64,000 bases of DNA from an uncultured delta proteobacterium. Lineage in GTDB: Bacteria; Myxococcota; Myxococcia; Myxococcales; 40CM-4-68-19. The notes beneath the pieces are model-generated. The model saw nothing but the letters and a program-made list of their open reading frames with translations, had not been told where the DNA came from and did not search any database. Below are positions 2,162-62,652 of the stretch, piece by piece. The translations under genes were made by a program, and so were the position numbers. The stretch covers positions 62,001 to 126,000 of the forward strand of contig CAIWCD010000007.1 in NCBI GenBank assembly GCA_903911145.1, given 5' to 3'. Numbering within the stretch: the stretch's first letter is position 1; each line of letters opens with the position of its first letter.

Positions 2162-2479
2162 ATGCACAAGCCCGGAAGCGAAGAAGAAGAGTATTTCGCC
2201 CGCGAGAACGCGGAGAAGATGCGCAAGCTGGCCGCGGAGCAGCGCGCGCACCTCGCGGAGAGCGAGAAGGCGAAGCTGCGCCAACTGCACCACAAGCGCT
2301 GCCCGAGCTGCGGGATGGAGCTGCACGACGTCACGTATCGCAACGTGAAGATCGAGCGCTGCTTCGCCTGCAACGGCACGTTCCTCTCGTCAGGCGAGTT
2401 CGAGAAGCTTGCGAAGGCGGAGCCCAAGGGCGTGATGAGCGATGTGCTGCGGCTGTTTGAGCATAAGCACACTCCGTAG
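2162..2479 (+). CDS. Zinc-ribbon protein of the zf-TFIIB family
   Basis: A small soluble protein of 105 residues. The N-terminal half is a highly charged helix, probably coiled coil (EEEEYFARENAEKMRKLAAE). The C-terminal half is a zinc ribbon with paired cysteines CPSCG and CFACN about 20 residues apart, followed by the GEFEKL acidic tail typical of the bacterial zf-TFIIB-like family. The ATG at 2162 is preceded by GAGGGAAAC. Its role is unknown; members are often assumed to bind nucleic acid or act as small metal-binding adaptors. It runs divergently from the hydrolase and convergently with serC, with repeat element E in the gap. Confidence 0.8.
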   Translation: MHKPGSEEEEYFARENAEKMRKLAAEQRAHLAESEKAKLRQLHHKRCPSCGMELHDVTYRNVKIERCFACNGTFLSSGEFEKLAKAEPKGVMSDVLRLFEHKHTP

Positions 2480-2484
2480 GGAGC

Positions 2485-2617
2485 GCTGCGGAGCATCGCT
2501 GGTCGCGGCCGTGCTCAAACATGCATGCGCGGCCGACGTTAAGAGCGCGCTCCGATCGAAGTTGGGAGGGGCCGCTCCTGAACTGCGCGCGGCCGCGACC
2601 AGCGGCTGCTCCACAGC
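2485..2617. repeat. Element E: palindromic intergenic repeat, family 2
   Basis: This non-coding element fills the gap between the convergent zinc-ribbon gene and serC, beginning 6 bp after the former's stop. Arms at 2485-2511 and 2590-2617 are reverse complements except for one bulged base and two mismatches. The 78-bp interior starts with TGCTCAAACATGCAT and ends with CCTGAACTGCGCG. These inner boundaries recur, inverted, in element F (55727-55853), while the arms do not. It could act as a bidirectional transcript end, but no U-tract follows. Confidence 0.75.
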
Positions 2618-2651
2618 TTAGACAAGTCGGAAAGAGGAGCTTCGAGATCGG

Positions 2652-55685: not shown

Positions 55686-55726
55686 GAAGTCTCCCGACTC
55701 TCGCAATTTCTCTCCGTCCGGACCAA

Positions 55727-55853
55727 GCCGCGGGGCCGTGGTGATGCTGGCCGCGCGCAGTTCAGGGGCGGCCGCAAGATCCCCCGCAGCGAGCACGGAC
55801 GTCAGCCGCGGATGCATGTTTGAGCACGGCCAGCGTTACCACGGCCCCGCGGC
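55727..55853. repeat. Element F: palindromic intergenic repeat, family 2
   Basis: 27-bp arms at 55727-55753 and 55827-55853 are reverse complements except for two positions, both of which would be G-U pairs in a plus-strand transcript. The interior is the inverted counterpart of element E: the boundary sequences TGCTCAAACATGCAT and CCTGAACTGCGCG recur exactly, while the arms differ from E's. It fills most of the amidase-rph gap, starting 41 bp after the amidase stop. Confidence 0.75.
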
Positions 55854-55893
55854 GAGCATTGAGCTGGCCGCCAAACCGCGGTAGCAAGCGCCC

Positions 55894-59373: not shown

Positions 59374-59381
59374 GCCGGTCG

Positions 59382-59627
59382 GCGCGCGCAAGCGGCGGGG
59401 AACTCGGCGGCGAACACGCGCCTGTGCGCTCTCTGCGCGATGCGCGGCGGTCGGTCGTGGAGTGTGCGGAGTTCGAGACGCCCCTTCGGGGATGCGGTCT
59501 CCGCTCACGAGCGCGCCTTTTGGTCCCGGACCTTGGCGCTGGGCTTATCGGACGCGATTCACGACTGAGCGTCGTGATGGTCGGAGCGAAATGTTCGCCG
59601 TCCGAGCTCCCCGCCGCTTGAGCGCGC
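59382..59627 (+). repeat. Element A: long inverted-repeat element, family 1
   Basis: A 246-bp non-coding element starting 9 bp after the tig stop. Arms at 59382-59416 and 59592-59627 are reverse complements with two mismatches and one indel. Inside the left arm lies ACACGCGCCTGT, inside the right arm CGGAGCGAAATGT, and in the middle a block (59507-59542) that matches element C at 35 of 36 positions. The 136 bp from here to element B contain no gene I can support. Confidence 0.85.
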
Positions 59628-59763
59628 CTCTGCAGATGAGACGCATCGACGACGGGCGCGATGCGGGTGCGCCGGTTCTGCGCCAAGAAGAATCAAAGAC
59701 AAGAGAACATCACGCTGCTTTTCTTTGCTTGTCCCCTCGATCGACACGACCTGCATTTCGCCA

Positions 59764-60004
59764 GGCGCGCACGGCGGTGGGGAGCGGCCGGCCAACATTT
59801 CGCTCCGGAAAGCCCGCCGCGCAGTCGGGAATCGTGCAGCGCGAACCCAAGCGCCGGCTCCGGGAGCCAAGGCGCGCTCGTCAGCGCTGCAGGAATTTTC
59901 CGCGACGGATCGGCCGCGCGCTGACTCCACGACCGACAGTCCTGCGACACGCCCGAGGGCCACAGGCGCGTGTTGGCCGGCCGCTCCCCACCGCCGTGCG
60001 CGCC
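59764..60004 (-). repeat. Element B: long inverted-repeat element, family 1, inverted
   Basis: 241 bp, opposite orientation to A. Perfect 34-bp arms at 59764-59797 and 59971-60004. Read on the minus strand it has the same order: ACACGCGCCTGT, central TCCCGGA flanked by complementary bases, then CGGAGCGAAATGT. The arm sequence differs from A, C and D at many sites. Confidence 0.88.
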
Positions 60005-60108
60005 GAGATGGAATCAAGAACTGGCGATCCCCGCACGCATGTTGGCCGGCCGCTCCCCACCGCCGTGCGCGCCGAGACGAAATCAGCAACTGGCGAACCG
60101 CGCACTCT
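59971..60108 (+). repeat. Two tandem 69-bp direct repeats before clpP
   Basis: The right arm of element B plus 35 bp (59971-60039) is repeated as 60040-60108. The 34-bp arm part is identical; the remainder differs at about eight positions. The second copy ends 62 bp before the clpP start codon. Only two units exist, so it is not a CRISPR array. Confidence 0.88.
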
Positions 60109-62064: not shown

Positions 62065-62308
62065 GCGCCCGAGGCGGCGGGAGGCGGGCGGCGAACACGC
62101 ACCTGTCTGTCTCGGGGCGCGGCGAAGAGGCTCAAGCGTAGAGTGCGCGGAGTGGGGAGGGCTCGAGCGGGATTCGAGCCTCCGCGCACGAGCGCGCCTG
62201 TTGGTCCCGGACCTTGGCGCTGGCGAAACCAGAGGCGCGGCATAAGCGAAACCGGAGCGTTCTATCGGGGCGAAATGTTCGCCGCCCGCCTCCCGCCGCC
62301 TCGGGCGC
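62065..62308 (+). repeat. Element C: long inverted-repeat element, family 1
   Basis: 244 bp, starting 15 bp after the clpX stop. Perfect 33-bp arms at 62065-62097 and 62276-62308. Interior ACACGCACCTGT at the left boundary, GGGGCGAAATGT at the right, and a central block (62188-62223) almost identical to that in A. Same orientation as A. Confidence 0.88.
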
Positions 62309-62404: not shown

Positions 62405-62652
62405 GGCGCTTGAGGCGAGGCGGGGAGCGGCGGGCGACATTTCGCTCCGATATCCCGCTCCGGTTTCGCCTGGCACGCGCAGAGGGTTTCGATAGCGCCC
62501 GACTCCGGGAGCAAAAGGCGCGACCCGCATGCGGAGCATTGCATCTCGCGTTGCATCCACGTCTCCGCATGCTCCACGCCTGAGTGTCTTCGCCGCTCCC
62601 CGAGACATACAGGTGCGTGTCGCCCGCCGCTCCCCGCCTCGCCTCAAGCGCC
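62405..62652 (-). repeat. Element D: long inverted-repeat element, family 1, inverted
   Basis: 248 bp, opposite orientation to C. Perfect 35-bp arms at 62405-62439 and 62618-62652. On the minus strand the order is again ACACGCACCTGT, central TCCCGGA, then CGGAGCGAAATGT. Its interior is closest to that of C over both flanks (for example GCGAAACCGGAGCG in both). It ends 91 bp before the lon start. Confidence 0.88.

Follow-up and report, generated by a model that had tools for sequence, protein, structure and literature searches.

The window analysed here, a 64,000 nt stretch of DNA from an uncultured delta proteobacterium, belongs to a genome of 5.3 Mb that is assembled in 53 contigs and 99% complete (G000, hereafter the host genome). 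It carries copies of two families of long hairpins, F2 (136 nt) and F1 (246 nt). Copy F of the F2 family occupies the spacer between an amidase gene and rph, and its arms (hairpin 55727-55853) enclose a loop of 73 nt. The predicted RNA fold of this copy has a z-score of -6.5, and that of the minus strand is -7.2. A second F2 copy and four copies of F1, the latter at the tig-clpP-clpX-lon genes, are also present in the window (Table 1).

Table 1. Hairpin elements of families F1 and F2 in the window, and the parts of F2 copy F (R1 and R3, covariance model scores).
Feature	Position	Strand	Remarks
F2 element copy F, whole hairpin (136 nt)	55724..55859	+	R1 covariance model, 135.6 bits
Copy F, left flank motif CTCTCCGTCCGGACC	55710..55724	+	F's version of CTTTTGNCCGGTC
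Copy F, left arm, 27 nt	55727..55753	+	Outer part semi-conserved, middle private
Copy F, left loop edge CGCGCGCAGTTCAGGGGCGGCC	55752..55773	+	Near-invariant across F2 alignment; core motif kept in other genera
Copy F, apical segment	55774..55807	+	Three length classes across F2 copies
Copy F, right loop edge GCGGATGCATGTTTGAGCACGGC	55808..55830	+	Near-invariant; GCATGTYYGAG kept in G001, G002 and G011
Copy F, right arm, 27 nt	55827..55853	+	Complements left arm except two G.T positions
F2 element copy E	2479..2620	-	R1, 138.4 bits; right end abuts stop codon of convergent gene
F1 element A	59381..59628	-	R3, 177.4 bits; begins 7 nt behind tig stop codon
F1 element B	59764..60004	+	R3, 163.2 bits; 34-nt perfect arms; inverted pair with A
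Tandem partial repeat	60036..60104	+	Contains another right arm of element B (60039-60073), with some of the bases downstream of it
F1 element C	62065..62308	-	R3, 215.2 bits; 15 nt behind clpX stop codon
F1 element D	62405..62652	+	R3, 219.9 bits; inverted pair with C; CTCTTGACCGGTCAT flank motif just upstream

Copy number and placement of the two families

A covariance model built from more than 30 relatives of copy F, which were collected by DNA search of the host genome, retrieved 33 full copies of F2 and one truncated copy. F1 is represented by about 31 copies, and essentially all elements of both families lie outside called genes. The original prediction had described a conserved interior between copy-specific but self-complementary arms for the copies in the window, and this design turned out to be genome-wide. 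It had also proposed a scan for inverted repeats. This was run without prior assumptions on 40 stretches picked around known copies (855 kb of the host genome; loops of 20-320 nt), and all 53 strong inverted repeats that it detected were F1 or F2 elements; rarer hairpin families may exist beyond the scanned 855 kb.

The elements are located immediately behind stop codons and have a fixed orientation. In 21 of 32 F2 copies the right end falls between -7 and +2 nt from the stop codon of a convergent gene, and in two further copies a partial repeat of the right arm, in tandem, shifts the end away from it; in contrast, none of the left ends of these 32 copies is placed near a stop codon in this way. 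F1 elements show the same tendency. The adjacent stop codon is TAG in 26 of 32 F1 and F2 cases, as compared with 46% genome-wide (p = 5e-5), and this right-end TAG belongs to the stop of the adjacent gene, being missing at copies away from stops. Some copies face gene starts or have the other orientation. Where elements form inverted pairs, the order is always (-,+) with the right ends outward, as seen for three F2 pairs, eight F1 pairs and two pairs in G011, a genome of the same family as the host. Most F2 copies are flanked by CTTTTGNCCGGTC; within the intergenic DNA of the sampled stretches this motif occurred only to the left of F1 and F2 elements and was always oriented alike (12 hits to the pattern, with some overlap). 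Based on the common flank motif, the placement behind stop codons and the order of the inverted pairs, F1 and F2 probably belong to one system, in agreement with the initial proposal that a common system stands behind both families.

Partial tandem repeats of the right arm were observed in both families, both in the window (Table 1) and elsewhere in the host genome (G000:C12:18719 and G000:C30:109939), as well as in G001, a genome of the same genus (L121 and L141). In the host genome copies, the loop edge precedes the arm. These repeats may be a trace of the mechanism by which the elements move or replicate.

Paired arms and fixed loop edges

The stems of F1 and F2 change on both sides together while the loop edges stay. 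In the alignment of F2 copies hardly any variation is seen in the loop edges CGCGCGCAGTTCAGGAGCGGCC and GCGGATGCATGTTTGAGCACGGC, and each copy has arms of its own of ~26 bp; arms measure between 24 and 31 nt, and left and right lengths vary in concert (r = 0.86). Over 435 pairs of F2 copies, core identity was uncorrelated with arm identity (r = 0.08 for the left and 0.00 for the right arm), whereas the identities of left and right arm followed each other (r = 0.74). The corresponding values for 120 pairs of F1 copies were r = 0.11 and 0.14 for core versus arms, and r = 0.89 for left versus right arm. Arms differ even between copies whose cores are 90-94% identical. A structural alignment of 33 F2 copies revealed that 97.8% of the pair cells are paired; changes affect both sides in 209 cells but a single side in only about ten, and covariation amounts to 0.475, as compared with 0.103 in shuffled and ≤ 0.065 in slid alignments. 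For 16 copies of F1, with the helices inside the loop included, 92% of cells are paired and covariation is 0.376 versus 0.116 upon shuffling. The rule that had been predicted for both families, a fixed loop edge with a private stem, thus holds in quantitative terms, i.e. in core-arm independence, in left-right tracking of the arms and in covariation. The F2 arms are not wholly private: their outer ~10 bp (AAGCCGCGGGGC..) are semi-conserved, the semi-conserved outer sequence being GCCGCGGGGC, and one bulged base recurs at an identical position in about half of the copies. The F1 arms contain a semi-conserved GGGGAGCGG block.

Of 866 arm positions in F2, 825 were Watson-Crick pairs, 15 were G-U, nine A-C and 17 other; in F1, 475 of 486 positions were Watson-Crick and four G-U. 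The G-U share of the F2 arms (1.7%) is below that of nine tRNAs from the same genome (5.2%), which favours perfection at the DNA level, through either selection of DNA hairpins or template switching, over selection at the RNA level alone. The remark in the original prediction that the only two arm mismatches of copy F would be G-U pairs in a plus-strand RNA is correct for that copy; across the family, however, no significant strand signal was obtained. A first count of G-U versus A-C mismatches (13:3) had seemed to favour plus-strand RNA, but the ratio was 15:9 (p = 0.31) in a cleaner structural count, and G-U pairing was rejected as proof of such an RNA.

These figures also bear on the alternative that the elements are a structured RNA family, acting at each site as a 3′ UTR element or small RNA through an internal loop that binds a protein or ligand, and with stems that covary under RNA-level selection only. 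Like the structured RNAs in Rfam, the elements have conserved unpaired segments between covarying helices, an arrangement that recurs at the inner stem of the G001 elements described below and inside F1, and both the location behind stop codons and the stable folds would be in keeping with such a role. However, the arms of both families are almost devoid of G-U pairs, G-U is not significantly commoner than A-C, dispersal is of a mobile-like kind and limited to four genomes, and none of the curated covariance models of Rfam 15 matches F1 or F2. Moreover, some copies point the opposite way or towards gene starts, and many are in inverted pairs. We regard a structured RNA family as unlikely. At permissive thresholds, Rfam returned only weak matches far below the family thresholds, e.g. 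to eukaryotic microRNA models, and these were rejected.

Relatives, empty sites and exchange between copies

Searches with structural models identified F2 homologues in G001 and in two genomes of the same family, G002 and G011; the family's other eight genomes count as non-carriers. With stricter filters, structural models found no F2-like elements in 133 genomes of other families of the order, and a DNA search of 59 relatives detected no elements outside the host genome. For F1, the yield in relatives was a single short palindrome, in G005. G001, G002 and G011 retain the loop-edge motif AGTT ... CATGTYYGAG, while arms and apical parts differ. An ancient RNA family spread across many phyla was considered and dismissed: a 19-base core pattern had three matches in 85,000 genomes, which have unrelated surroundings and look like chance, and no match in viral contigs.

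Most copies in G001 have the arm GGTCTGGGGGAGGGGTCC in common. Their inner 5-bp stem varies (CAGGC, CATGC, GAGGC, CGGGC, CACGC), each time together with its complement, and most of these variants are separated by paired transversions, for which there is no G-U route. G011 has two arm types within one inverted pair, and this pair is present at two loci; recent duplicates in this genome exhibit a one-sided, uncorrected A to G change in one arm. Two arm types also occur in G002, along with two mixed copies, among those read, that combine the left arm of one type with the right arm of another and are mismatched. Since arms are common to copies in all three genomes, they travel with the core when the element multiplies.

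Upstream of rph, neither an element nor a palindrome is present in the seven relatives that were read. The amidase-rph spacer measures ~10-15 nt in most relatives and ~100 nt in G001, as compared with 208 nt in the host genome, the Rph proteins of the host genome and its relatives being about 74% identical. Likewise, the tig-clpP spacer comprises tens of nt in relatives (three loci read) but ~800 nt in the host genome. No convincing case of an orthologous insertion in G001 was found among 15 loci of three relatives, a comparison made on 16% of the host genome. Because the empty sites lack arms as well as core, elements insert as whole units, arms and core together; these units, often in the form of an inverted pair, are insertions absent from the relatives.

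The original prediction had envisaged an enzyme, encoded by the element or the host, for which the loop-proximal sequence is the recognition site and which turns flanking DNA into a palindrome by copying or extending it, so that the arms would be built at insertion. Arms that differ between copies with closely similar cores are what one would expect from this process. It is at odds, however, with the outermost bases of the arms, which the copies share along with the bulged base, with the arms held in common in G001, G002 and G011, with the arms common to two host genome copies that lie at different loci and differ in their apical cores, and with empty sites that lack the arms. Two observations that had been named in advance as refuting the idea, i.e. 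arms that can be aligned across copies and arms inserted with the interior as one unit (the rph and tig-clpP sites lack both), have now largely been made, and construction of the arms from flanking DNA appears highly improbable.

The same sites bear on a mobile core that enters the loops of pre-existing palindromes, e.g. terminators, in which case the arms would be target DNA. Although a fixed interior, variable arms and a location behind genes would follow readily, there is no palindrome at the empty rph and tig-clpP sites of the relatives, no F1- or F2-like arms lacking a core were present in the 855 kb scanned (loops of 20-320 nt only), and the outer arms have a family consensus. We consider this origin scarcely credible.

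Besides insertion, there are signs of exchange between copies. Each of the three apical classes occurs with both the TT and the CC variant of the F2 right edge; and copy C31:97832 has the arms of C37:87176 but the apical segment of C35:6027. The simplest reading is that cores are exchanged between copies and the arms left in place, which would explain part of the decoupling of arms and core.

An F2-like element lies close behind clpX in G002 (G002:C181:12942-13059), on the same contig as clpP, and the host genome has an F1 element there (element C in Table 1). The 3′ side of clpX is possibly an insertion hot spot common to both genomes.

Known hairpin systems and a possible origin of the elements

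F1 and F2 resemble REP/BIME elements (TnpA-REP/RAYT, Y1 HUH), which are extragenic dispersed palindromes, many of them near stop codons (PMC12306157), that form inverted pairs, have unpaired stem bases as recognition points and tolerate stem swaps (PMC8266576). In contrast to REPs, which measure 14-40 nt, both families are considerably longer, with long conserved loop edges and private stems. They have no GTAG foot within the element, and a Y1_Tnp gene is lacking in the host genome. As to size class, dispersed intergenic location and long non-coding stem-loops, F1 and F2 are similar to the ERIC/RU stem-loop families and to MITEs (PMC2267715, PMC2759123). MITEs, however, are defined by terminal repeats common to copies, whereas in F1 and F2 no part is less conserved than the terminal arms; the host genome has no shared terminal inverted repeats beyond the outer ~10 bp of the arms, and arms are shared in G001. 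Since defining features of both classes were looked for and not found, F1 and F2 are dispersed hairpin repeats that are members of neither REP/RAYT nor MITEs. An intrinsic terminator was rejected as well: reading along the gene strand, GACCGGTCAAAAG follows the hairpin, and the T run is located on the other strand, at the far side.

A reverse transcriptase or HUH protein had been suggested as a possible companion of the elements; a shared reverse transcriptase and a Y1 HUH protein were looked for in the family and neither was found to do so. No Y1 HUH transposase is encoded in the host genome, whereas the 11 other genomes of the family have such genes (11/12); genes of this type are abundant in G001-G011, with up to 21 per genome. 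A RAYT partnership was rejected, as the best HUH loci of the relatives have no element nearby. So was an element associated with a reverse transcriptase (retron, DGR or group II), because the carriers have no such enzyme in common: three reverse transcriptases are present in the host genome and none in G001, G002 or G011. Neither a transposase partner nor a parental IS was found for F1 or F2.

The explanation that we favour, and consider probable, is a single system of non-autonomous, dispersed REP/BIME-like hairpins, of which F1 and F2 form two branches and in which the helices need only pair. The identity of such an element would reside in the conserved unpaired loop-edge (internal-loop) sequences atop a long helix. 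A structure-recognising enzyme, perhaps now lost, may have moved the elements by acting on folded single strands, by analogy with TnpA-REP; recognition by TnpA-REP and single-strand transposases is structure-based, with unpaired bases being important and stems swappable (PMC8266576). After insertion, the stems would drift in pairs through helix selection, through replication template switching in which one arm serves as the template for the other, or through both, while function and gene conversion among the copies would keep the cores similar. An element located behind a stop codon would probably form a hairpin at the mRNA 3′ end that limits exonuclease attack or translation of downstream sequence, a 3′ UTR role to which its position points; REPs ≤ 15 nt from a stop codon are reported to affect translation (PMC12306157). 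Against this explanation stand the lack of a Y1 HUH transposase in the host genome, the best HUH loci of the relatives, which have no element, and the G002 hybrids, which live with mismatched arms.

Template switching could also have a larger part than in the origin favoured here. During replication it keeps hairpin stems paired (PMC8794818), and the mechanism is documented for E. coli quasipalindromes too (PMC7202029). Quasipalindrome correction of this kind would account for paired changes and perfect stems; in contrast to F1 and F2, it is a mutational process and not an element. A mobile hairpin system in which templated copying inside the element keeps renewing the stems as perfect pairs, leaving identity in the unpaired loop-edge motifs only and giving each copy a private stem decoupled from its core, we hold to be unlikely. 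It is less likely still that active rewriting by template switching, or by a dedicated activity, copies a mutated arm onto the other and makes arm turnover much faster than that of the core. The excess of doubly over singly changed cells and the arm lengths that change in step would be expected from such an activity, as would arms that keep no memory of core relatedness and the paired transversions in the inner stem of G001. On the other hand, inverted loops, the predicted by-product, were not seen among the F2 copies, the recent duplicates in G011 retain their one-sided change, and in old copies selection alone could lead to the same outcome.

It is an open question in molecular evolution how the two sides of a stem change together without a broken intermediate. 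Between them, F1 and F2 supply > 60 paralogous hairpins in a single genome. These are of two designs, are almost perfectly paired, show a decoupling of stem from core that can be measured, and have relatives in sister genera, which allows models of selection and of template switching to be pitted against one another. The two families also contribute a REP/BIME-like system that marks gene 3′ ends in a host without the usual Y1 transposase.

Two reverse transcriptases of the host genome deserve mention. One is a 507-aa ORF with a YGDD motif (G000:C51:12639-13280; L190 1099-2622, minus strand), and 5′ of it lie three long hairpins that share the arms TGCGGCCGGGTCCCGGAAGG and have 102-112 nt loops (L190 2467-2618, 2775-2924 and 3088-3229); the enzyme and its hairpins possibly constitute a retron- or DRT-like unit. 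The second, of about 366 aa and with a YVDD motif, is located at G000:C6:6021-6671 (L187).
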